Source: a virus. Taken from it: a stretch of 29,513 nt of DNA. Numbering within the stretch: position 1 is the stretch's first letter; every line of letters starts with the position of its first letter. Positions 4,864-22,842 of this stretch are shown in pieces. The notes beneath the pieces are model-generated. The model was given only the letters and a program-made list of their open reading frames with translations. It was not told where the DNA came from and made no database searches. Where the stretch lies: positions 1 through 29,513 of IMG/VR virus record IMGVR_UViG_3300046010_002935. The stretch is one strand, 5' to 3'. The translations under genes and the position numbers were made by a program.

Positions 4864-6336
4864 ATGCCCGACTCCAAGATTACAGCACTCGCCAGCATCG
4901 GAACCGGAACCGATCCAGCCAATGACCCGCTGGTCATCGTCGATGTCTCCGACCCGACCATGGCGGGGTCCGGCACCACCAAGAAGGTCACGCTGAATCA
5001 GCTTCTCGGGGCTGGTGGTGCTGCTTCGTTTTCTTCACTTACCACGTCTGGAGCCGCCACCTTCAGCGGCAACACGACGCTTGGTGACGCGCAGGCCGAC
5101 ACCTCGACGATCAACGGCCAGCTCACCGCTCGCCAGGGCGAGTTCCCGTCCGCCGTCCGCGCCGCTGCCAGCGATTACGCTGCGGTGACGTTCGATGGGG
5201 CGACGGCTGGGACGCGGATTGCTGCTCCATGTCAGGCTATCGGCACGGGTGACTTCTCAATGTGGAGCCGGTTTCGAGTTCCTGCGATCAGTGGAGGGCA
5301 AAACTTTGCCGTGATTGGACTCAGTAGCGCAAATACCACAATTTCAGTCGCCAATGGTCTTAGAACTGTTGTCGATAATTTGGGGGCATTTTTTGTTCAG
5401 CTTTACGGTGCTACGACAAGCGATAGCAGGACTGCTACAATTTCTGGTTTTATTACCGCTTATGTTGGTCAGGTTGTCGATGTTGTTGTCACACGCTCTG
5501 GATCGACCCTGAAAATCTACATCAACGGTGCTGATACTGCATACACTGAAACCACTGCAGGAACTCCTCCGGCTTGGAGCGCAACAGTCGCATCCGACTT
5601 TGCTCTTGTTGGTGCCGCTGGAACTTCTGGGGTAACCGTTTTCTCAGGCCGCATCTTCCGCTCCGTCGTCTTCAACCGCGCTCTGTCCGCTGCAAATGTC
5701 GTCGAGGTTGGCACCACCGGAGTGAACCCGGCGGATCAGTGGGGGACTCAGACGGGGCAAACCAGTGGCACTTTGGTTGCATCTAAACGCTATCGAATTA
5801 CCACTTACGTCTCTGCTGATTCATTCACGAATGTCGGAGCTGCGTCTAACACGACCGGTGTTGAATTCGTTGCAACCGGAACGACTCCGACGACTTGGAC
5901 TAATGGCTCCACTTTGAATCGAATCGGTGGAATCATAGATTTGGACTTCACCGTCGGAACCGGCTACCAAGCCACCGACCGAAGCACCAATAGCCTGCAC
6001 GGCACTCTGTTCAACGCTGTCGAGTTCACGCAGCCGAAGCGGGTAGCGGTGCTCTACGCTACGACCAACACCAACGGCAACCAGCAGATGCTGGGCACGC
6101 TGGCAATCCCGACCAACGCGATCATCGAGGATATCGTGGTGAACTCGACCGGATCGGCTACGGTGAGCGTCGGGAACGTCTCGGCTGGCACCCAGATCGT
6201 CAACGGTGCCTCGGTCGTCTCAGGACGCCAACGGCTCACCATTGCTACGCCGTTCAGCACGACCGGCAACCTGTGGGTGAACAGCAACGCCACCGCTACC
6301 CTGCAATTCACCATCCTGTACACCATCGCTTCCTAA
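4864..6336 (+). CDS. Fibre/decoration protein with LamG-like domain
   Basis: It has 490 residues and follows an A/C-rich leader. Residues 1-50 (KITALASIGTG...PLVIVDVSD...GTTKKVTLNQLLG) are a widespread N-terminal module of phage fibre and decoration proteins. Residues about 105-280 look like a concanavalin/LamG beta-sandwich (DYAAVTFDGATAGTRIA, FSMWSRFRVP, LKIYINGAD, GRIFRSVVFNRALS), typical of carbohydrate or surface binding. Residues about 300-353 are an inserted module seen in many phage proteins (NVGAASNTTGVEFVATGTTP). Residues about 390-490 form a beta-rich C-terminal domain. Base composition drops inside the LamG part (24 of 60 G/C at 5341-5400 versus 43 of 60 at 5101-5160), suggesting a recombined domain. 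Confidence 0.72.
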   Translation: MPDSKITALASIGTGTDPANDPLVIVDVSDPTMAGSGTTKKVTLNQLLGAGGAASFSSLTTSGAATFSGNTTLGDAQADTSTINGQLTARQGEFPSAVRAAASDYAAVTFDGATAGTRIAAPCQAIGTGDFSMWSRFRVPAISGGQNFAVIGLSSANTTISVANGLRTVVDNLGAFFVQLYGATTSDSRTATISGFITAYVGQVVDVVVTRSGSTLKIYINGADTAYTETTAGTPPAWSATVASDFALVGAAGTSGVTVFSGRIFRSVVFNRALSAANVVEVGTTGVNPADQWGTQTGQTSGTLVASKRYRITTYVSADSFTNVGAASNTTGVEFVATGTTPTTWTNGSTLNRIGGIIDLDFTVGTGYQATDRSTNSLHGTLFNAVEFTQPKRVAVLYATTNTNGNQQMLGTLAIPTNAIIEDIVVNSTGSATVSVGNVSAGTQIVNGASVVSGRQRLTIATPFSTTGNLWVNSNATATLQFTILYTIAS

Positions 6337-12259: not shown

Positions 12260-12754
12260 ATGGCAAACACGCAGGGCAACAAGTACCTTTTTGGATCACC
12301 GGCAACGCTGACGATGTATGATGCCGCAGGTTCTCTCATCGTCACTGGGTACATTTCCCCAGACATCGAAAACTACGACATCACCCACGAATGCGACACC
12401 GAGGAAGTCCGCAACTCCAACGGCGAGGTCGTTGGTCATCTCGCTTACAACAACCGGCTGACGTTGACGGTCAATTTCATTCCTGTTGGAACCAGCCCGA
12501 CGGAGGCAACCGCGTTGAATCAGCGGCTTTGGGGATGCTCGCTTCCGACCGGAAACGGCACTGTCATTATTTCTGGCGCTCCAATCATCAATGTTGGTGG
12601 TTATACGGACGCCATCAACGCGCCAACCGGCAATCGCTGGATCTACGGTGGCGGTGGGTCGATCAAGACGACCGCGACCGGAAAGGCTACCGGCACGATC
12701 ACGCTGAAGCGGTTCACGAACCTGTCCGCCACTGGCGCTGCCACCAACGTGTGA
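12260..12754 (+). CDS. Major tail tube protein
   Basis: It has 164 residues and follows an A/C-rich leader (CTAACCAATACCCACC) without an SD. Beta-rich sequence with YDITHECDTEEVRNSNGEVV and NRLTLTVNFIPVGTSPTEAT fits the beta-sandwich tube subunit that polymerises around the tape measure. The C-terminus is GKATGTITLKRFTNLSATGA. Size, composition and its place ahead of the chaperone-position gene and tape measure all agree. This should be one of the most abundant proteins of the particle, which makes the absence of an SD noteworthy. Confidence 0.7.
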   Translation: MANTQGNKYLFGSPATLTMYDAAGSLIVTGYISPDIENYDITHECDTEEVRNSNGEVVGHLAYNNRLTLTVNFIPVGTSPTEATALNQRLWGCSLPTGNGTVIISGAPIINVGGYTDAINAPTGNRWIYGGGGSIKTTATGKATGTITLKRFTNLSATGAATNV

Positions 12755-13311
12755 CCAGTCTGGCTGACATCCTGACGGCGACGGCGCAACCCTGCCCGAT
12801 GGTAATGGGGTTGCGTCTGGTTCCGTATTCCGTGGGGCATTCACTGATGCTCCACCGCATGGGATCGCCGCTTGTCATCGGTGGCGAGGTGTCGCGGGCG
12901 GACCTCATGCAGGGCGTGCTGGTCTGCTCCGAGCCGATCAAGGAGACGCTGAAGACACTGCGCTCGCCGTTCCGCGGCATCATTCTCTGTCTGTGGACGC
13001 GCAAGACCATAGGGCTGTCGTTCGAGGTCGAGTTCGAGAAGTGGAACAACTGGATGGCCAGCCAATCGACGGCACCTGAGATTCTGACCAAGCCCGGCGC
13101 CAAACGGGCGCTGGCCATGCCGTGGCCCGAAAGGATGCTCGCCTGCTGTCTTGACCTCGGTCTCACCGAGGACACGGTTCTGTCGATGCCGATAGGTGAC
13201 GCGGAGCGCCTCGTTCTCGCCAGGGCAGAAACTCACGGCGACGTTGAACTTTGGAGCCCGAAGGACGAAGCTCTGTGGCGTTGGGCGCAGCAACAGGCGG
13301 CCAACAACTAA
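12751..13311 (+). CDS. Tail assembly chaperone-position protein
   Basis: GTG 12751 overlaps the tube stop (GTGTGA) and gives 186 residues. The open frame extends far upstream but only as an out-of-frame shadow of the tube gene. The protein is helical with several Cys and Trp residues (RMLACCLDLGLTEDTV, ALWRWAQQQAANN). Its place between tube and tape measure is that of lambda gpG-type chaperones, which coat the tape measure during assembly. No second overlapping frame or slippery site is visible before the tape measure start, so the usual programmed frameshift product is probably absent. Assignment is by position only. Confidence 0.45.
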   Translation: MTSLADILTATAQPCPMVMGLRLVPYSVGHSLMLHRMGSPLVIGGEVSRADLMQGVLVCSEPIKETLKTLRSPFRGIILCLWTRKTIGLSFEVEFEKWNNWMASQSTAPEILTKPGAKRALAMPWPERMLACCLDLGLTEDTVLSMPIGDAERLVLARAETHGDVELWSPKDEALWRWAQQQAANN

Positions 13312-13315
13312 CCCC

Positions 13316-14413
13316 ATGGCGATCTTCTCACTTCTGGCAAAGCTCGGGTTTGACGGCACCGCATTTGAAACTGGGGCCAAGCGGGCAACGTCTCTAGCCA
13401 AGGGCATCGGCCGGGAAATCAACTCGACCTTGGCAAGCGTCTTCACCGTGGACAAGCTGGCCCAGTTTGGCATGGAGGCCATCGACGCCGCGGGCAAGAT
13501 CAACGACCTCTCAACCCAGCTTGGTGTGACGGCCGAGTTTCTCCAAGAGATGAAGTTCGCCGCCGAGATGTCAGGCGGCAGCCTCGAAGGCGTTTCCGGT
13601 GCGCTGGAAAAGATTGCTGTCGCCAGAACCAAGGCGCTGCAAGGCAATCAGGGCCTCATCGCCGCTTTCGAGCGCTTTGGCGTTACTGCCGAGGAACTGA
13701 AGACCGCCAAGCTGGAGGACATCTTCCTGAAGATCGGCCGGGCATTTGAGGGCGTGGCCAATCCCCAACAACTGCTTGAACCGTTCCGAGAACTGGCAGG
13801 CCGTGGTGCCGGAGCTCTGATCCCAGCCATGGTCGAGGGGTTGGCCGAGGCATCGCAACAGGCCCGAAACATGGGGATGGTGATGTCGAACGAGGTCATC
13901 ACGACGCTGGACGAGGCCAACGACCGGGTGGACATGATGAAGAAAACGATGACCGCCGGGATGGGGTCATTGATCGCCAACATTCTTTCACCGATTGCAA
14001 AGGCTTTTGAAGCCTTCGGCGCTGGATTGCAAGGAGTCATCAACGAGTCGATTCAACAGGGCTTTCGGTTGGCAAATCCGATTACTACGATGATGAACCA
14101 AATCGACACATTCGCCCAGTCGTACCGGTCTTCAATCGAAGAACAAGATGCCGAGATGCAGGCCAGAAGGGAGGCACGCGAAAAGAGAGCGGAGCTTATG
14201 CGAAAGGCAACATTCGATTCAAGGGCAGCCGAAAAAATCGTTTCTAGCGTGGCCGTTTCCGCCGCTTCATCAGACGCATTGGCTCGCACCGGTGGCTTCA
14301 CCGCTTTCCAGTCAAACCTCGACAAATATTTTGGTGCCGTCAGAACACAGGCTATGGATCTCCGCGACATCGCACGCAACACTCAGCGCACGGCTGAAGC
14401 CGTCGAGGAATAA
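13316..14413 (+). CDS. Tape measure protein, short
   Basis: ATG 13316 follows the leader AACTAACCCC and is chosen over upstream frame starts that lie within the chaperone gene. The product has 365 residues. The N-terminus MAIFSLLAKLGFDGTAFETG and then KINDLSTQLGVTAEFLQEMK, FAAEMSGGSLEGV and FRELAGRGAGALIPAMVEGL are typical of tape measure proteins of phages with non-contractile tails. Hydrophobic stretches occur at about 220-245, then a charged coiled-coil region (EQDAEMQARREAREKRAELM). Tape length sets tail length. At about 1.5 angstrom per residue this predicts a tail near 55 nm, which is short. No lysozyme-like domain is seen. Confidence 0.75.
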   Translation: MAIFSLLAKLGFDGTAFETGAKRATSLAKGIGREINSTLASVFTVDKLAQFGMEAIDAAGKINDLSTQLGVTAEFLQEMKFAAEMSGGSLEGVSGALEKIAVARTKALQGNQGLIAAFERFGVTAEELKTAKLEDIFLKIGRAFEGVANPQQLLEPFRELAGRGAGALIPAMVEGLAEASQQARNMGMVMSNEVITTLDEANDRVDMMKKTMTAGMGSLIANILSPIAKAFEAFGAGLQGVINESIQQGFRLANPITTMMNQIDTFAQSYRSSIEEQDAEMQARREAREKRAELMRKATFDSRAAEKIVSSVAVSAASSDALARTGGFTAFQSNLDKYFGAVRTQAMDLRDIARNTQRTAEAVEE

Positions 14414-15243
14414 TGGCGAACATCCAAGGCATCCCAAACCCGACCGCACTCGAATACATCGAGGTTGCACGGTCATACGACAACAACGGCACAGGCCGCG
14501 TCGTCCAACTGACGTTTCGCGGGTCCAAGGACGCCCTCCGCATCGCCTCGGCACAATGGGTGGCCATCGGTGCAAAATACACCATCCGTGAAGATGGTCC
14601 ATACTCGGAGGCCACCGTCACCATCGGTGGCAACAGCTTTGACCCAGGAACACCCATCGACCAACAGTCGGCGCCTTTGGTTGGTGAGGTCGCCGACATC
14701 CGCTACGAGTTCCGCACCGATTATGTCGAAGTGTCACTTTTCGCATTGCCAGCTGTTGCTCGCGAGGCTTCGACCGTCAGCAATCCAAGCACATACAGGT
14801 TTTTAATCGAGACGGCGGCCAAAAGGGGTGAACCGCTGCCATCTCCTCCCGAAAGCAACATTTCGACGTTTCCGATGGCTCAACGGGTGTGGGCAAAACT
14901 GTCTAGAGGCGAGGAATCGTTTCCTGTTGCTCGAATCGGTCTAACCCGCATTGCCACCTGGTCGGGCAACCTCTCCCTTCCGCAGATTCCACAAGGCATC
15001 CCGCCGGTGTATTATCCGGTTTCGTTTGGGATTGCATGGCAGCTACCGAACAGCGTGTTGCAAATGCTTCCCGCTGTTCCTGTGGATCCGGCCACCGGAC
15101 AAGTCCAAGCCCCGCCTGGGACCGCTTGGGGCTGGAAGCAAACCAACTATTCCACCAACCTCATCACCAAAACAAACCAGGTCGAGCAGGTCATCTCCTG
15201 GACGTTTGCGCCTTACGACTTGGACATCTACCCGTTCTTCTAA
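14413..15243 (+). CDS. Tail protein after the tape measure, distal-tail-like
   Basis: It has 276 residues, and its ATG shares a base with the tape measure stop. The protein is mixed beta (VVQLTFRGSKDALRIASAQW, AKYTIREDGPYSEATVTIGG) with a Pro-rich end (VPVDPATGQVQAPPGTAWGW). Its slot after the tape measure suggests a distal tail or baseplate ring component. I do not recognise the family and no enzymatic motif is visible. The end FAPYDLDIYPFF is unusually aromatic. Confidence 0.5.
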   Translation: MANIQGIPNPTALEYIEVARSYDNNGTGRVVQLTFRGSKDALRIASAQWVAIGAKYTIREDGPYSEATVTIGGNSFDPGTPIDQQSAPLVGEVADIRYEFRTDYVEVSLFALPAVAREASTVSNPSTYRFLIETAAKRGEPLPSPPESNISTFPMAQRVWAKLSRGEESFPVARIGLTRIATWSGNLSLPQIPQGIPPVYYPVSFGIAWQLPNSVLQMLPAVPVDPATGQVQAPPGTAWGWKQTNYSTNLITKTNQVEQVISWTFAPYDLDIYPFF

Positions 15244-15267: not shown

Positions 15268-15642
15268 ATGGCAGACGAAATCCAAATGACGGCCCGGCTC
15301 TACGCATCGAAGAACGGTGCCTACCTGCCGTCGGTCACCTACACCAAGAGCGCCACCATGGTCGGCACCGACATGGGCAGCCAGACGCAATCCATCGGCA
15401 CCGGCGCGTCCGAAATCCTCGACGTGCCCGTGGATGTGACTAGCCCCTACAAGGTGCTCATCACCAACCTCGACAACTCCAACTACGTCGAGCTTTCCTT
15501 CACTTCGGGTTTCGCCGCGGGCGCTGGCACGATGCGTCTTCCGCCCGGCGAGACCATGCTGATCCCGTACATCAACACGAACCTGTACCTGATCGCCAAC
15601 ACGTCGGCCTGCACGATCCAGGCTACCTTCTGCGAGATCTGA
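15268..15642 (+). CDS. Small tail protein A of a tandem paralogous pair
   Basis: It has 124 residues and follows a 24-base A/C-rich leader (AACCAACCCAACACCCACA) with no SD. It starts MADEIQMTARLYASKNGA and ends TCTIQATFCEI. It shares the pattern MAxEIxMxARLYAxKxGA, then DMGxQTQ, LDxPxD, PYKxL, NLD, PPG and CEI with the next gene over its whole length, so the two arose by duplication. It is beta-rich, with no signal or membrane segment. It may form a ring or decoration at the tail tip. The family is not recognised. Confidence 0.62.
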   Translation: MADEIQMTARLYASKNGAYLPSVTYTKSATMVGTDMGSQTQSIGTGASEILDVPVDVTSPYKVLITNLDNSNYVELSFTSGFAAGAGTMRLPPGETMLIPYINTNLYLIANTSACTIQATFCEI

Positions 15643-15654
15643 TTCACACCCGCC

Positions 15655-16038
15655 ATGGCAAACGAAATCGAAATGGCCGCCCGCCTGTACGCTGCCAAGG
15701 GCGGGGCCAGCATCAACTCGCAGACGTGGACGGCCGTGGCCAACATGACCGGCCGCGACATGGGGCAACAGACCCAGGACGTGGGCAATAGCTGGGAGAC
15801 GCTCGACACGCCGACCGACCTTGCGCTGCCGTACAAGCTGCTGCTCGTCAACCTCGACCAACTGAACGGCATCCAGATGCGGTTTCGCGACGCCACGACG
15901 TTTCCGAATTACGCTACGCCGATCCAGATTCCGCCGGGTCAGTTCACATTCCTTCCGCAGATTATCAGCGGCGTCGAGGTGCAACTCATCTCGACCAGCG
16001 GCACGGTTAAGGTGATGACCCAGTACTGCGAGATTTGA
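15655..16038 (+). CDS. Small tail protein B of a tandem paralogous pair
   Basis: It has 127 residues, after the leader CACACCCGCC. It is clearly related to the gene at 15268: both begin MA[DN]EI, both carry ARLYA, DMG, QTQ, PYK, NLD and PPG in the same order, and both end in CEI. This copy has extra Trp and Arg residues (WTAVANMTGRDMG). It diverges most between 75 and 115. The divergence suggests an old duplication with separate roles, perhaps adjacent rings or a heteromeric tail-tip part. It is next to a low-GC large gene that may be the receptor-binding protein. Confidence 0.62.
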   Translation: MANEIEMAARLYAAKGGASINSQTWTAVANMTGRDMGQQTQDVGNSWETLDTPTDLALPYKLLLVNLDQLNGIQMRFRDATTFPNYATPIQIPPGQFTFLPQIISGVEVQLISTSGTVKVMTQYCEI

Positions 16039-16042
16039 TGCC

Positions 16043-16258
16043 ATGCCCATCCAGCTTCCATCAAAGGTGTCCGAGCGTGGCCTAAAGTCTGACCACGCTC
16101 GGGCCATCAACCAGCTCATCGAGGCCGTCCGCCGGGTGCAACTGGTCGCTGGCCCGGGTCAACGGGTGGAGCAGAACGCCAACGGCACCACGCTGAAGAT
16201 CCAGCCCGGGTTGACGATGACGACCACCCAGACCGCCGAGGAATCTTGGTTTTATTGA
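16043..16258 (+). CDS. 71-aa hypothetical phage protein
   Basis: ATG 16043 lies five bases after the previous stop. It begins MPIQLPSKVSERGLKSDHAR, followed by AINQLIEAVRRVQLVAGPGQ and a Thr-rich end. A pattern of the type P-x-x-x-x-H-A-x-A-I-N-x-L-I followed by a basic helix is common in small phage proteins near the tail genes, but I know no function for it. It is the last GC-rich gene before composition falls sharply. It could be a tail-tip adaptor for the large protein downstream. Confidence 0.55.
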   Translation: MPIQLPSKVSERGLKSDHARAINQLIEAVRRVQLVAGPGQRVEQNANGTTLKIQPGLTMTTTQTAEESWFY

Positions 16259-16261
16259 TGT

Positions 16262-18892
16262 ATGCCGTTTGCGTTGGATAAGCGTGACAAAATGTTCAAC
16301 GCTAGCAACCTGAATGGGTTGTACGCTCGTTTCGACAAAAAGTGTTTTTTGGCTCTTAATGGTTTGAGCCCACTATTTGGCAGCATATCATCAGGAAATT
16401 ACGGGCTGAATGTTCCTTATGGTGTGATTTATCAATACAGAAGAGACCCAGCTACTTGCAGAAGACTTGCTGGCCCAGACGCTTATCTTGAAAATTACGA
16501 TCAGGTCAATGCCTACATTGAGCTTTCAAAATTAGAAAGCAAATATCTAGATGTTAATGGAGGGCAGGTCTATGTAGACAGATATCTTCCATCTGGCGCA
16601 GGTGTAAATGTTGACATCAAACAAATTCACTTTTCGTTTGAACTTCTCAAACGAGAGATCGACGGAAAACAATATGATGTGCATTTAGGATGGGACCCGC
16701 CCAATACATTTCAAACATCATTGGTCAACGGAAGCTTGGGAATGTCGCCAAGATTTCCGCCATCTAGGATACATAAACACGAAACGGCGGTTGCGGATAT
16801 CTACATTGAAGGATTCTCTGATTTCATTATCAAAAACACCTATCAACGATACGATTGCTGGAGAATCCACAACTGCAATGCTTCGACTTTGTATGTCGAT
16901 TTGCAGATTCCAGATGGTTCCTCCGTCACAATTTCGATTGAGCCTTCGTCCTGCAAATCGTTTAGAAGAAATGTCGATGGTAAATGGATAACTTCCTGGC
17001 AAGACGGAACTCCATGCAGGTATTTCTTTCCATATGTATCGCGTGACGTTCCTTATTTTGCTGGTGGGCCTCCTTTATCAATAGCTGGAGCGTTCATGGC
17101 AATAGAACGTTCTGCTTCAGCAAATAACATTGCCAATCCATTTATTATTTTTACATGGCAGAACGCTCTGTACGCACAACTTGATCCAGACCGCCGTTTT
17201 GACATTCTCAAAACATATCCAAAATCATACGATGACCCAGTAATTGACAACAATTTTATAGGAGATTGCGTATTTACTTGGGGAAGAGCAAAGGTTGTCG
17301 AGTCAATCGGATCTGTTATTACCAACTCATATTTCAAGGCTTTTGATGGCGTAGAAGATTTTTTAAGTGATCTCGACGACATAGGCCTAGACGTATTACA
17401 ATCGCACGGTGAATTGTTGCTAACGCCTAAAAATCCAAGTGCTACAATCACAATCTATCCGGTAGATTGTAACGTATTTATTGGTGGAACATCAAATTTG
17501 TACTGGTCAATTCCTCCAGCAGGTTTGTCCGTTAGCACATTTTATCCTGCTACATATCAAACCGAAAACCACAATTCAACTATTGGATGGATTCCGGCGA
17601 ATGTTCCAGATTGGTTTGAATCCATCGCAACCCTTAGGAAACGAATAGCGGTAGAAGAAGGCTACTATACATCAATAGACGATTTTGAATCTGTATCGGA
17701 TGCTGTTATTTCTAAATTTACAATGACCCCGTTGGGTCTTTGCTGTTCTGCTGTAAGTGGATTGCAAATACAAGCTTGGAACAATTTGGCATTCGACGAA
17801 ATTGCAGGATATGAGTACAGAGCTTTTGTTGGAGATTTGTTTATCAAATACAGAATGGCTGGTGATGGGCCGCCTTCTTTATCTACAACCAAATATGTGT
17901 CGAGTGTAAGAACTTATTTGTTTCACGTTTCGTCGTCTTCTGTATATTACGAAAAAACTCTTCCTGTTTTAACTGGCAGTAGTATCAATGCGGCATTTGT
18001 TCCACCGAACGGACCATGGGGTTTCGCGTCTTCGGTATACGATGCCGAGCTTTCTAGAATATTGTCCGTATCGACGGGTGGTGCCGATTTTTGGGTTGAT
18101 AAATGGGGTGCATATGGCGGTAAAGACGCCAAAGTTAGAATTTTGGGGCAACCTGACAAAACGCTTCAGACTCAAATTCAAACAACAACAGCAATACCTC
18201 CATTAGTTAGAGACGATGTTTTTAGGTCTTTAGACGATCCGCAAATGGCTGGGATTGCTGGCACCGTGACGCTTGGGAATGACTATAACATTGCTCAAAT
18301 CAATTACAAAGAAACCGGACAGTATTTCAATCTTCCATACGTTCCGTCTCTTGTGACTCAAGATGGTGGAACGGGTCCAATCTTTCACAAGATTCCAAAA
18401 TCTGCTTGGCTTTGGAATCTTATTGAATGGGCTGTTAATGCTTGGACTAAAGCAATACCAATGTGTATGGGCAATGAGAATGTTCCTTTAATTGGAGGAA
18501 TTCCATTAAAAAATCTTGTTGATACTTACAACACGGATTCATCGGATACGAGCGGCAGGAGAGCTTTTTCCTTAACTGAAGCTCAATACGATCAGCTTCT
18601 AACGAACGGCATTCCAGCCTACAGGCAAGCACTTCCGCCTCCGTTTCCTGCTGGTACATATGATTATTGGGTGGCTGCAGAGGATCTTGCTTCATATTGT
18701 AAATCCTATGGTTTCAACTCATACAATTTTGATACCGTAGACGATATGCTGACTCCAACACGTCGATTTGAGGAGCGGTCTTATTCGGCTGGCGAGACAG
18801 TTCAAGTTGCGAGTTACGTCGATTCCGTGAGCTTTGGTCCGGGGATTTCCAAGCAACTCTATGGATCTATTAGATATGTAGATATCAAGTAA
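16262..18892 (+). CDS. Large low-GC protein, candidate receptor-binding tail protein
   Basis: It has 876 residues from ATG 16262. An ATG at 16258 in another frame ends at once. I recognise no family. It is rich in Tyr, Phe, Ser, Asn and Pro, with many predicted strands, about 11 cysteines and no clear signal peptide or transmembrane helix. A beta-rich ectodomain-like composition and last position in the tail block fit a host-contact protein. G/C counted by hand is 20 of 60 at 16501-16560 and 19 of 60 at 17221-17280, against 39 of 60 at 15781-15840. AGA, ATA and TTT/AAA codons are frequent, unlike its neighbours. This strongly suggests import from another source. The frame is intact over its whole length. 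Confidence 0.7.
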   Translation: MPFALDKRDKMFNASNLNGLYARFDKKCFLALNGLSPLFGSISSGNYGLNVPYGVIYQYRRDPATCRRLAGPDAYLENYDQVNAYIELSKLESKYLDVNGGQVYVDRYLPSGAGVNVDIKQIHFSFELLKREIDGKQYDVHLGWDPPNTFQTSLVNGSLGMSPRFPPSRIHKHETAVADIYIEGFSDFIIKNTYQRYDCWRIHNCNASTLYVDLQIPDGSSVTISIEPSSCKSFRRNVDGKWITSWQDGTPCRYFFPYVSRDVPYFAGGPPLSIAGAFMAIERSASANNIANPFIIFTWQNALYAQLDPDRRFDILKTYPKSYDDPVIDNNFIGDCVFTWGRAKVVESIGSVITNSYFKAFDGVEDFLSDLDDIGLDVLQSHGELLLTPKNPSATITIYPVDCNVFIGGTSNLYWSIPPAGLSVSTFYPATYQTENHNSTIGWIPANVPDWFESIATLRKRIAVEEGYYTSIDDFESVSDAVISKFTMTPLGLCCSAVSGLQIQAWNNLAFDEIAGYEYRAFVGDLFIKYRMAGDGPPSLSTTKYVSSVRTYLFHVSSSSVYYEKTLPVLTGSSINAAFVPPNGPWGFASSVYDAELSRILSVSTGGADFWVDKWGAYGGKDAKVRILGQPDKTLQTQIQTTTAIPPLVRDDVFRSLDDPQMAGIAGTVTLGNDYNIAQINYKETGQYFNLPYVPSLVTQDGGTGPIFHKIPKSAWLWNLIEWAVNAWTKAIPMCMGNENVPLIGGIPLKNLVDTYNTDSSDTSGRRAFSLTEAQYDQLLTNGIPAYRQALPPPFPAGTYDYWVAAEDLASYCKSYGFNSYNFDTVDDMLTPTRRFEERSYSAGETVQVASYVDSVSFGPGISKQLYGSIRYVDIK

Positions 18893-18898
18893 ATCTTT

Positions 18899-18955
18899 GG
18901 GCAATGTCGAAGGAGCTTTATCGGCAGGTGCTATAAAGCCAACCTCCGCTTGCCC
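18899..18955 (+). other. Nested inverted repeats at the late/early boundary
   Basis: Three paired arms are nested in one 57-base span: GGGCAA (18899-18904) with TTGCCC (18950-18955), GGAG (18912-18915) with CTCC (18944-18947), and GCTTTAT (18915-18921) with ATAAAGC (18933-18939). The bases between arms do not all pair, so the structure would have bulges. It starts seven bases after the stop of the low-GC gene. It could act as an mRNA 3' end structure, a processing site or an operator. Confidence 0.45.
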
Positions 18956-18975
18956 AGCGAAATCTTGCTTGACCG

Positions 18976-19006: not shown

Positions 19007-19150
19007 GTGAAGTGCCCCACCTGCAATTCAATCTTTGCCGCAAGCCTGGCCGAAATCGGCCGGGAGATGGGGCGCATCACGTCGCAAAAAAAGGCCGCCG
19101 CCGCACGCCGCAACGGCAAAAAAGGCGGACGGCCAAGGAAGGAAAAATGA
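19007..19150 (+). CDS. 47-aa CxxC/AT-hook-like small protein
   Basis: GTG 19007 is preferred to TTG 18950, which lies within an inverted repeat. The N-terminus MKCPTCNSIFAASLAEIGRE has one CxxC knuckle. The C-terminus is strongly basic and ends RRNGKKGGRPRKEK, with a GRP core like an AT-hook. Similar ends occur in small phage and bacterial DNA-associated proteins. It overlaps the ATG of the next gene by four bases. A DNA-binding or regulatory role for the early operon is plausible. Only one CxxC pair is present, so zinc binding would need a dimer. Confidence 0.55.
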   Translation: MKCPTCNSIFAASLAEIGREMGRITSQKKAAAARRNGKKGGRPRKEK

Positions 19151-20226
19151 CTGAGAGCAATGAAGTGCAACCCATGGAGGTCGTCGGAAACGACGCCTTG
19201 CTGGCCATCGAACTGGCGCAGATCGACACGCAGATTGCAACCGCCAAGCGGTATCCACGCAACATCGCCAGCGTCAAGACCGCGATGCTCACCATCGCCA
19301 CGCTGGATGAAGAAACGGCATCGTCATGCTTCTACACCCTCCCGAGGGGCGGCAAGACGGTGCAAGGTCCGTCCGTCCGCATGGCCGAGATCGCGCTCAG
19401 TTGCTACGGCAACGTGAAGGCCGGCACTCGGATCCTGTCGGTCCATACCGGGGACAACCCGCACGCGGTCGTCCAGGCCGTCGTTCACGACCTGGAGAAG
19501 AACGTCGCCTACTCGGTCGAGAAGCGCCGCCGCATCGTCGGCAAAAAGTCCAAGGGCGGCGCGCCCGACGAAGACGACATCAATCTGGCGGTCAACGCGG
19601 GCTCGGCCATCGCCTTCCGCGACGCCGTGTTCAAGGTGGTGCCGGGCGCACTCACCAAGTCGGTCACCGATGCCGCGATGAAGGTGGCGGTCGGTGACGT
19701 CAAGAGTCTGGCCAAGAAACGCGACCAGGTTCTCAGTCGACTTAAGCAAATGGGAGCGACCGAGGCCCGGATCCTGTCCGCCTTGGGGCTGGCAAAGGTC
19801 GAGGAGATCGACGCCGACAAGCTCGGGGAACTCATCGGCATCGGAACCGCGCTCAAGGACGGGTCCATCACCATCGAAGAAGCGTTCCCGAACGCCACCA
19901 ATCAAGAGGCCAAGCCGATCTTCAAGGAACCAGTTCAGGCCACCGTCACCGTGACACCGACGGCGCCCGCGGCCGAAACTGCCATCCAGGTCGATGCGTC
20001 CGAGCCTGTAACCACGGCCGAGGAAGCCGGCACGCCGCAGGAGCGCCTCGCCGCGCTCGTCATCCGCGCTGGGTTCACCCTCGAGGACTTCAACGCATTC
20101 GCCATCGGCATCGGGTTCTACCCGACCCCGGTCTCCGACTGGCCCGAGGTTCCGGTTGAGACCGCCAACCGCATCCTTCGCAGTCCGAAGGGTCTGATCA
20201 CCCAACTGAAGGGGGGTGCCAAGTGA
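19147..20226 (+). CDS. Putative single-strand annealing/recombination protein
   Basis: ATG 19147 has a good SD (AAGGAAGG), giving 359 residues. Residues about 15-195 show a family pattern I associate with phage recombination loci: EIDTQIATAKRYP-like (AQIDTQIATAKRYPRN), LDEETASSCFYTLPRGGKTV, GPSVRMAEI, then AVVHDLEKNVAYSVEKRRRI, GSAIAFRDAVFKVVP and KVAVGDVKSL. Next comes an acidic linker and a C-terminal helix bundle (ERLAALVIRAGFTLEDFNAF). A nuclease gene lies one small ORF downstream, as for RecT/Erf annealing proteins with partner exonucleases. No fold test is possible here, so annealing activity is inferred from context. Confidence 0.55.
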   Translation: MTESNEVQPMEVVGNDALLAIELAQIDTQIATAKRYPRNIASVKTAMLTIATLDEETASSCFYTLPRGGKTVQGPSVRMAEIALSCYGNVKAGTRILSVHTGDNPHAVVQAVVHDLEKNVAYSVEKRRRIVGKKSKGGAPDEDDINLAVNAGSAIAFRDAVFKVVPGALTKSVTDAAMKVAVGDVKSLAKKRDQVLSRLKQMGATEARILSALGLAKVEEIDADKLGELIGIGTALKDGSITIEEAFPNATNQEAKPIFKEPVQATVTVTPTAPAAETAIQVDASEPVTTAEEAGTPQERLAALVIRAGFTLEDFNAFAIGIGFYPTPVSDWPEVPVETANRILRSPKGLITQLKGGAK

Positions 20227-20519
20227 GCGACCGCATCACCCAGCTTGCGGACCTCATTTTAAGGAGGGTGCCCAGACTTATCTGCGAGGCCACCGATCAG
20301 ATCAACGAGGCCATCGGCGCTGCCATGGAGGAGGCGCAAGAGAAGGAAGGCGGGAAGGCAATCCTTTCGCTGTCGATCACAGCCAAATGGGACTTGGATG
20401 GCAACGCTGTCATCCTGTCCATGCCGGTGTCCGTCCGCCGCAAGTTTGAGGTCGTTGCCAGTCTGGACGATCCGAACCAGCAGAGCCTGCCCATCGACGA
20501 GGAAGGGGGTGCACTGTGA
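20223..20519 (+). CDS. 98-aa hypothetical protein between annealing protein and nuclease
   Basis: GTG 20223 overlaps the upstream TGA (GTGA) and has a purine-rich SD (AAGGGGGG). The N-terminal half is helical and charged (EEAQEKEGGKAIL). The C-terminal half has the pattern SITAKWDLDGNAVILSMPVS, then VRRKFEVVASLDDPNQQSLP, which matches a small phage protein type of unknown function usually found near recombination genes. Its position between a putative annealing protein and a PD-(D/E)XK nuclease suggests an accessory role in that pathway. It overlaps the nuclease start by four bases. Confidence 0.62.
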   Translation: MSDRITQLADLILRRVPRLICEATDQINEAIGAAMEEAQEKEGGKAILSLSITAKWDLDGNAVILSMPVSVRRKFEVVASLDDPNQQSLPIDEEGGAL

Positions 20520-21637
20520 GCGACGAACGCGCAGCACTACCGAGCGCATCCTCGGCGCACCGATACGCTTCCTGCCCGGGGTCGTTCCTCTTGGAGCAAC
20601 AGGTCACCGAGCCCGAAACGTCATCGGCCGACGCCACCACGGGAAACCGGATCCACGCTGTTCTGGCCGGCGAGAACGTCCACAAGTACCCGGCCGATCA
20701 AATCGTCCTGACCTCCGAGGAATCGGAGATCGTGGACCTCTGCACGCAACAAGAGGCGCAGCTTGTCCAGGCCGTGTTCCGCGGATCCAAGCCTACCACG
20801 ACAGTCCGGGAGCGCCGGTTCTGGTCTTTCGACTCGGAGTGGCGGAAGCTCTGGTCAGGCAAGCCTGATGTCGTACACCTGCTCGGAGACCGCGTGTTGG
20901 TTATCGACTACAAGACCGGCCGCGGGGAGGTCGAACACGCCACCGGCAACCTGCAACTGCGGGCGCTGGCCGTGTTGGCATCCGAGCATTGGGAGGGGTC
21001 GATCAACGACGTTACCGTCGCCATCATACAGCCCCACGCCGGTGAGCCGTCGGTCTGCACCTACGCATGGGAAGACCTCGACAAGGCCAAGGCGCAGATC
21101 TACGAGCTGATGGACCGCGTGAAGCGCCCAGGGCAACCGAGGGTGCCGTCGGTCGATGCCTGCCGCTACTGCAAGGCGAAACCGATCTGCCCGGAGGCCC
21201 AAGCCGTCGTCGAGACGCTCCCGGCCACCGTGCCGAAAGAGTCCGGCGAGATCGTCATGTCACCGGACCAGATTGCCCGCTTCCTCGAAGTGGCACCGCT
21301 GGCCGAGTCCGTCATCGAATCCGTCCGCGGGAAAGCCCGCAGGATCCTGGAGGCCGGGGGCGCCATCCCAGGGTGGAAGCTCAAGCCCGGGGCCGTCCGC
21401 GAGTCCATCACCAAGCCCGAGGTTGTCTTCGGGCGGTTCTGCGCAGTCGGTGGCACGCAAGCCGACTTCGCCAAAATTATCACCGTCACCAAGACCAAGC
21501 TCCGCGACTCGGTAAAGGCCGTGACCGGGACCAAAGGCAAGGAACTGGACGCTCAGGTCGAGGCAATGCTCGACGGATGCACCGAGGCCAAGCCAACCGC
21601 GCCGTCGCTGGTGAAGGAAAAGGAGGTGGTCGCATGA
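20516..21637 (+). CDS. DUF2800/Cas4-like PD-(D/E)XK nuclease with Fe-S-type cysteines
   Basis: It has 373 residues from GTG 20516. The N-terminus SASSAHRYASCPGSFLLEQ is the usual DUF2800 start, with Cys20. His47 lies in TGNRIHAVL, GKPD at 115-118 supplies Asp118, and VIDYKTG gives Asp131 and Lys133 of the PD-(D/E)XK core. Gln147 follows in NLQLRALAVL. Cys216, Cys219 and Cys225 with Cys20 form the C-x(n)-CxxC-x5-C pattern that holds a 4Fe-4S cluster in Cas4/AddB relatives. It should be a DNA exonuclease acting with the upstream annealing protein in phage recombination. Nuclease assignment is strong. Substrate polarity is unknown. Confidence 0.82.
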   Translation: MSDERAALPSASSAHRYASCPGSFLLEQQVTEPETSSADATTGNRIHAVLAGENVHKYPADQIVLTSEESEIVDLCTQQEAQLVQAVFRGSKPTTTVRERRFWSFDSEWRKLWSGKPDVVHLLGDRVLVIDYKTGRGEVEHATGNLQLRALAVLASEHWEGSINDVTVAIIQPHAGEPSVCTYAWEDLDKAKAQIYELMDRVKRPGQPRVPSVDACRYCKAKPICPEAQAVVETLPATVPKESGEIVMSPDQIARFLEVAPLAESVIESVRGKARRILEAGGAIPGWKLKPGAVRESITKPEVVFGRFCAVGGTQADFAKIITVTKTKLRDSVKAVTGTKGKELDAQVEAMLDGCTEAKPTAPSLVKEKEVVA

Positions 21638-22086: not shown

Positions 22087-22421
22087 AGATGCTCCGATCC
22101 ATCGGCTTCGCCCGGGTCTACCGGGACGCCGAAGTCATCACCGGTGACACCGGAAACCAGTTCGTCCAACTCATCGCCGAGTTCGAGGAGCGAACGCTCT
22201 ACAACGGCACCACGCACGCCCAGCGGGTGCAAATCAGGTCATTCGACAAGAAGGACATCGCACGCGCCTACAGGCTGATTGAAGGAGCGTGGATCCTGTT
22301 CTCGGGAGACTGCGATGCCGTCGCCGAGAAGGGCCCGACGGGCTGGTGGTACGCCAACCCGCGGGTCACCGGCCGGATCCTCAAAATCGTGGACCTCGAC
22401 CAGGGGGTGGCCCGTGCCTGA
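22083..22421 (+). CDS. 112-aa protein, possible OB-fold/SSB-like
   Basis: It has an ATGA overlap with the MazG gene. Residues AQRVQIRSFDKKDIARAYRL, then IEGAWILFSGDCDA and TGRILKIVD resemble the strand-helix-strand order of small OB-fold ssDNA-binding proteins, where a basic helix precedes the G-x-W/V-I-x-x-x-G segment. A partner in the recombination module, it sits between a MazG-like enzyme and RusA. It lacks the acidic DDIPF tail of typical SSB, which the gene at 28831 has. The fold call is tentative; coding is well supported. Confidence 0.5.
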   Translation: MKMLRSIGFARVYRDAEVITGDTGNQFVQLIAEFEERTLYNGTTHAQRVQIRSFDKKDIARAYRLIEGAWILFSGDCDAVAEKGPTGWWYANPRVTGRILKIVDLDQGVARA

Positions 22422-22842
22422 AATCCTGTCATGCTGGGTGGACGGCCGCCCAAAAGCACAACCCCGCGTGAAGGCATTCCGCCGCGGGAATCATGCCGGC
22501 GTCTATGACCCCGGGACCGCCGACAACTGGAAGCTCGCGGTGGCCGCCGCCGTAAAAGCGGCATGGAACAAAGAGCAGCACACCGGCCCTCTCCGGTTGA
22601 CGCTGCGATTTATGATGCCGCGACCCAAGGCCCACTTCACCAAGTCGGGCCAGATCAAGGTGACCGCTCCGCACTACCAGACATCCAAGCCCGACCTGGA
22701 CAATCTGGCCAAGGCGGTCATGGACGCGTTGACCCAGATCCAGGTCTGGAAGGATGACTCCCAGATCGTCCAGCTCTGGGTGTCGAAACCGTACACCGAA
22801 AAGCAGGCCGGGTGCTGGATCCAACTGGACACGGTTGACTGA
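22414..22842 (+). CDS. rusA: RusA-type Holliday junction resolvase
   Basis: It has 142 residues from GTG 22414, close to the usual RusA length. RusA cuts four-way junctions made during recombination or replication. The family signature is plain: SKPDLDNLAKAVMDALT (Asp94, Asp96 and Asp104) and VWKDDSQIVQLWVSK (Asp114, Asp115 with downstream Lys), the acidic metal-binding centre of RusA. An N-terminal G-R-P-K-A-Q-P-R segment is also typical. It overlaps the preceding gene by eight bases. It is the last gene of the recombination operon, followed by a 132-base gap. Confidence 0.85.
   Translation: MPEILSCWVDGRPKAQPRVKAFRRGNHAGVYDPGTADNWKLAVAAAVKAAWNKEQHTGPLRLTLRFMMPRPKAHFTKSGQIKVTAPHYQTSKPDLDNLAKAVMDALTQIQVWKDDSQIVQLWVSKPYTEKQAGCWIQLDTVD

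Follow-up and report, generated by a model that had tools for sequence, protein, structure and literature searches.

Exchange of a late gene of the tail block, with the surroundings kept, has been described for the Alteromonas phages A5, V22 and P24, where it was attributed to host recognition and to recombination of co-infecting phages (PMC10579305). The locus analyzed in this work resides on a 29,513-base virus record, a phage contig of about 60% GC that is referred to in its full length as the window, and it likewise appears to have exchanged a late tail-block gene within conserved surroundings. It differs from the Alteromonas phages in that the exchange would have taken place within one phage group, concerns a single gene and left a scar that can be followed at the level of single bases, and in that the encoded protein is a putative receptor-binding protein. 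A second system suited for comparison is Verrucomicrobia phage P8625 (NC_029047), which is among the best named-phage matches of the portal protein (E 3e-25, 25% identity) and carries genes for a ClpP-like protease and a tape-measure protein in the same order as the window. In P8625, the tape-measure gene is followed by two smaller genes and then by a large gene annotated as 'tail fiber'. Profile comparison did not reveal any similarity between the window protein and the 634-aa tail fibre or the 584-aa lectin-like protein of P8625.

In the window, the tape-measure gene (13196-14413, PHROG match with E 8e-18) is followed by four small genes, the gene for an 876-aa protein on which this work is focused, a phrog_3657 gene, and genes for an exonuclease and a helicase. 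The 876-aa gene is therefore located late in the tail block, between the tape-measure gene and the genes for recombination and replication. All features described here lie on the plus strand. The first small gene (14413..15243) encodes a 276-aa protein that did not match any entry in Pfam, PHROG or NCBIfam and is prone to exchange. It is followed by a conserved 124-aa gene (15268..15642) and its tandem paralogue of 127 aa (15655..16038), the products of which are 41% identical to each other (blastp, E 8e-33), strongly conserved in the phage group and without a family match. The fourth small gene encodes 71 amino acids (16043..16258), and its conserved 3' end forms the left recombination border. 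Downstream of the 876-aa gene, a 404-aa gene (19012..20226) with a match to phrog_3657, a family of unknown function, opens the next block and consists of unchanged recipient sequence. Further downstream, but still shortly behind the exchange site, two recombination genes are present, one for a PD-(D/E)XK nuclease with a full-length DUF2800 match (20516-21637) and one for a RusA resolvase (22279-22842). A concanavalin-A-like (Laminin_G_3) domain is present in a 490-aa protein encoded beside the head genes (4864-6336).

A homologous gene is found at the same position in 86 non-identical loci, with the small genes upstream in 81-83 of them. IMG/VR was scanned first with the 876-aa protein, next with its 127-aa neighbour and finally with a profile, which confirmed 187 relatives of about 850-935 aa that are mostly 37-58% identical to the window protein. 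Contig by contig, the gene is consistently placed after the 71-aa gene and the same small genes. It thus belongs to the conserved core of a phage group that is as yet undescribed. A preliminary description of the window, made from the sequence alone, had stated that the protein belongs to no recognised family. This holds for the databases: single-sequence and profile searches of the 876-aa family against Pfam, PHROGs (30 members), NCBIfam and PDB sequences yielded nothing significant, and the protein had no match among named phages, prophages and curated families. It does not hold beyond them, given the 187 relatives from a single IMG/VR scan.

The open reading frame of the 876-aa gene (16262..18892) runs from ATG to TAA over 876 codons with no internal stop and is therefore intact as first described. 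Its GC content is 0.418 (0.47, 0.43 and 0.35 at the three codon positions), compared to about 0.60 in the remaining window, and its GC3 of 0.35 contrasts with values of 0.56-0.87 in the other listed window genes. When the gene is excluded, the lowest stretch of the same length (2631 bp) has a GC content of at least 0.552 (mean 0.601, sd 0.022); a local dip to 0.52 occurs at 5251-5750. The preliminary description had called the gene very low in GC on the basis of two 60-base lines with 33 and 32%. The difference between 41.8% GC in the gene and about 60% in the phage bears out the statement as such, but the two lines are extremes, as only 4 of 43 such lines have values of 0.34 or less and their mean is 0.42. 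The switch in codon usage that had been noted at the ends of the gene is confirmed by codon counts. Per 1000 codons, AGA occurs 20.5 times in the gene and 1.6 times in the other genes, ATA 14.8 versus 0.7, TTT 38.8 versus 8.7 and AAA 32.0 versus 8.8 times, while CTG drops from 32.2 to 4.6. At either end of the gene the composition changes within tens of bases.

A composition of this kind could in principle be a long-standing property of the locus, i.e. the gene would never have been imported and its low GC content would be maintained by selection that acts, for instance, on expression or translation. In fact, low-GC alleles fall below the average of their own genome in L003, L050, L051 and L074. 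Across the 86 loci, however, GC content of the gene and of its flanks are tightly correlated (r = 0.88), alleles of GC-rich relatives are themselves GC-rich (0.58-0.66), and no locus departs further from the fitted line than the window, at 6.0 sd beneath it. Taken together, these values argue against low GC being selected in this gene in general. Equally low GC in all close relatives had been named in the preliminary description as the finding that would imply long residence; the allele of the closest relative, L010, has a GC content of 62.6% and is unrelated in detail. As the remnant of a former resident gene described below also contradicts it, long residence is barely conceivable, and the low GC content of the gene is the footprint of a source phage and not a property selected in the gene. 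The same gene is a low-GC outlier at two further loci (L091:5001-7673 and L099:5001-7697, z -3.4 and -3.5). L091 is 95% identical to L102 upstream of the gene and carries a different allele (0.47 versus 0.62 GC), apparently as a consequence of the same kind of replacement. The opposite case is represented by L082:33-2834, a GC-rich allele (0.616) on a contig of 0.536 GC (z +2.7).

The gene and its neighbours point to different relatives. As judged from the flanks, L010 is the closest sampled relative of the window, with amino acid identities of 75, 99, 98 and 94% for the 276-, 124-, 127- and 71-aa proteins and of 97% for the product of the downstream gene, whereas the 876-aa proteins are only 39% identical. 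The comparison of close relatives proposed in the preliminary description has thus revealed a different, GC-rich allele between very similar neighbours. On the other hand, the allele present in the window recurs in IMG/VR 3300025889_000976 (L002/L056) and 3300006875_000353 (L003), with 96% identity over all 876 residues and about 94% identity at the nucleotide level. The sampled part of these genomes has a GC content of about 51.5%, and the neighbours of the gene are 44-96% identical to those of the window (in L003 44, 96, 86 and 62% for the 276-, 124-, 127- and 71-aa proteins). Synonymous distances agree with this picture. Between the window and L003 they amount to 0.21 in the 876-aa gene and to 2.0 and 3.2 (saturated) in two small genes, and between the window and L010 to 0.16-0.25 in three small genes. 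In the protein tree of the 876-aa family, the window and L003 form a pair with a support of 100 and a clade of the window and L010 is rejected (AU test, p about 1e-116), while a flank tree built from three small proteins unites the window and L010 with a support of 96. In the AU test on the protein-only flank tree, a grouping of the window with L003 is not rejected (p 0.76), because the small proteins change slowly. Since the flank proteins are too conserved, DNA distances constitute the deciding evidence for the flanks. It follows from the conflicting identities of the gene and its neighbours that a divergent allele replaced the resident one.

The imported allele is intact and kept under purifying selection, with a dN/dS of about 0.08 against L003. 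A drift towards the GC content of the recipient was not seen (54 changes in one direction, 80 in the other). The preliminary description had considered the acquisition to be recent, which is only roughly right, as the synonymous distance of 0.21 to the nearest sampled copy is about the same as that between the small genes of the window and L010. L003 should be regarded as a carrier of the allele and not as its proven donor, since its own flanks resemble those of L008 (84% identity upstream and 95% over 658 bases downstream), which carries another allele and does not share the 876-aa gene with L003. L003 may therefore itself be a recipient.

Both borders of the imported segment can be located precisely. 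On the left, base-level alignment and sliding identity place the crossover at GAATCTTGGTT (16240..16251, about 11 bases), which is shared by L010 as the recipient type and L056 as the donor type. To the left of it, the end of the 71-aa gene is similar to L010, and to the right of it the sequence is similar to L056. On the other side, a donor-like tail extends past the stop codon into the right crossover zone (18893..18917), with the similarity to L056 fading after about 18910. It is followed by a scar (18918..18973), the 3' remnant of the replaced resident gene. Read in frame from 18918, the scar yields RSFIGRCYKANLRLPSEILLD, a decayed version of FLRYADLRLPNELAS, the C-terminus of GC-rich alleles that is not present in low-GC alleles. 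L010-like sequence resumes as a blastn HSP at 18938, corresponding to position 12350 of L010. This position is still coding DNA, 36 bases inside the L010 gene, the end of which is at 12385. When all 86 loci were searched for the motif LxLPxE behind the stop codon, it was found only in the window. As the scar is unique to the window and matches the C-terminus of GC-rich alleles, a GC-rich homologue must formerly have been present at this locus. The proposal that the gene is an import is hence correct insofar as a gene-sized foreign segment is present; no gene was added, however, but a resident homologue was replaced, and the 3' end of the old gene is still there.

With sharp borders of this kind, the question arises whether the contig joins two co-occurring phages that never existed as a combined phage. 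Such an assembly chimera would be in line with the existence of a relative with the same allele and with the fact that the right border is seen in the window assembly only. The left border, in contrast, is repeated in a second record (L009/L147) that is identical over 12,191 bases and ends inside the gene, although the samples are possibly not independent. Furthermore, the allele is not the sequence of the L003 phage, as evidenced by 134 GC-changing differences alone, by the synonymous distance of 0.21 and by the 4% difference between the proteins. The parental types have about 11 bases in common at the left border but no shared bases at the right one, which is less than an assembler needs, and the scar is both diverged and frame-shifted relative to the intact C-terminus, which would not result from a chimera. 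An assembly artefact is consequently very improbable.

Concerning the origin of the allele, the preliminary description had assumed a different kind of phage or host. A gene with low GC and AT-ending codons could indeed have been taken over from a host of low GC content or from an unrelated phage. This is contradicted by several lines of evidence. Searches with tblastn, using the 876-aa protein, that of the relative L024 and the 124-aa neighbour as queries, did not produce a match in 50,697 named phage records, and no homologue was found in bacteria and archaea with one genome per species; genome scans with two profiles did not identify a host of the phages either. All relatives that were found occupy the same locus in the same phage group. 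The 96% match resides in an L003-type phage, the portal of which is 75% identical to that of the window, and which belongs to the same group as the window phage. An origin outside the group is therefore highly unlikely, and the source was in all likelihood another member of this group, with a GC content of about 51%. The search for homologues in low-GC phages that had been recommended was successful in that it led to the match in phages of about 51% GC, but these are members of the same group.

Our preferred explanation, to which we assign a probability of roughly 85%, is that a divergent allele replaced the resident copy of a tail-block gene when two phages belonging to one group recombined inside the same cell. 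The recipient would have been a GC-rich, L010-like phage and the source a phage of about 51% GC with the allele now present in L003 and L056. No route other than recombination between co-infecting members of the group would account for the pattern. The exchange was presumably made by phage recombination enzymes, which may have relied on the brief conserved segment that closes the 71-aa gene for the left crossover and on hardly any homology, if any, for the right one. The DUF2800-type PD-(D/E)XK exonuclease and the RusA resolvase encoded in the window could take part in such a process. The replacement is ordinary phage mosaicism, a known process that is unusually well recorded in this case.

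Comparison of loci across the group indicates that the window is not an isolated case. In a pair test scored by gene position, a gene was counted as exchanged when it was less than 65% identical while the other four genes were at least 80% identical; the tape-measure gene was left out because its length varies. The 876-aa gene was exchanged in 30 of 111 pairs (27%), while exchange of the 124-, 127- and 71-aa genes was not seen in 73, 73 and 72 pairs, respectively; as pairs share loci, the counts do not represent independent events. The 276-aa gene was exchanged in 49 of 136 pairs (36%), a frequency no lower than that of the 876-aa gene, from which it is separated by three conserved small genes. 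With a looser threshold of 75%, exchange of the 127-aa gene was recorded in 12 of 100 pairs. When nine protein clades are mapped on the flank tree, some branches of which are weak, 17 changes are needed compared to a minimum of 8. Both flanks are kept in L074/L123, L084/L136, L067/L090 and the window/L010, where identity is lost between -40 and +40 from the start codon and regained no more than about 30 bases past the stop codon, and L074/L132 also exhibit a drop within about 40 bases of the start and a return within about 30 bases of the stop. As these changes lie near start and stop, the whole gene is the unit of exchange. In L029/L023 and L091/L102, identity recovers only about 250 bases further on. 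The 876-aa gene has been replaced repeatedly across the group, mostly at the same borders.

Which function the protein fulfils in the tail has to be deduced from its genetic context. Its position after the tape-measure gene and its exchange at fixed borders suggest that it is probably an exposed tail-tip or receptor-binding protein, and a role in host recognition, as put forward in the preliminary description, is plausible. If the protein is indeed exposed at the tail tip and binds receptors, swapping it would alter the range of recognised hosts. No sequence match or convincing fold match to tail-tip or receptor-binding proteins was found in families, PDB or fold searches. An AlphaFold model computed with 53 relatives reached a pLDDT of 78.5 and a pTM of 0.84; its best fold matches in the PDB have Z scores of at most 5.0, and no Foldseek match has an E value below 0.001. 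Residues from about 52 to 254 resemble, depending on the model, a domain of a 6o38 chain, StcE and two tailspikes (Z 3.4-5.2), and residues 339-421 resemble flagellar cap and hook proteins (Z up to 5.0); both similarities are below a meaningful level and were dismissed. A further point against this role is that conservation is spread along the 876-aa protein and not confined to an N-terminal anchor.

The protein could also be a structural component of the tail without receptor contact, such as a hub or a tube terminator, and the exchanges would then reflect frequent recombination near a block border. The negative outcome of the search for a receptor-binding fold, the exchange of the 276-aa gene and the placement of the gene where the structural block ends and recombination is tolerated would all fit this notion. 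However, exchange never affects two of the three neighbouring small genes and reaches the third at the loosest threshold only, so that recombination is not simply general in this region, and alleles that are 38-60% identical at constant flanks point to a diversifying use. A purely structural role thus appears less likely, and we favour the exposed tail-tip or receptor-binding protein. As a tentative extension, the 876-aa family may constitute an undescribed class of host-recognition proteins without a recognisable fold or family that belongs to a widespread group of uncultured phages and is encoded at a fixed-border exchange site, at which entire alleles with identities down to 38% replace one another.

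Independent of the exact function of the protein, one replacement in an uncultured phage has been recorded cleanly here, with the type of the recipient, the type of the carrier, the two borders and what is left of the old gene. Recurrent replacement marks which anonymous tail gene is under pressure to vary, and the 876-aa gene is the first candidate among the tail genes of this group for tests of host recognition.
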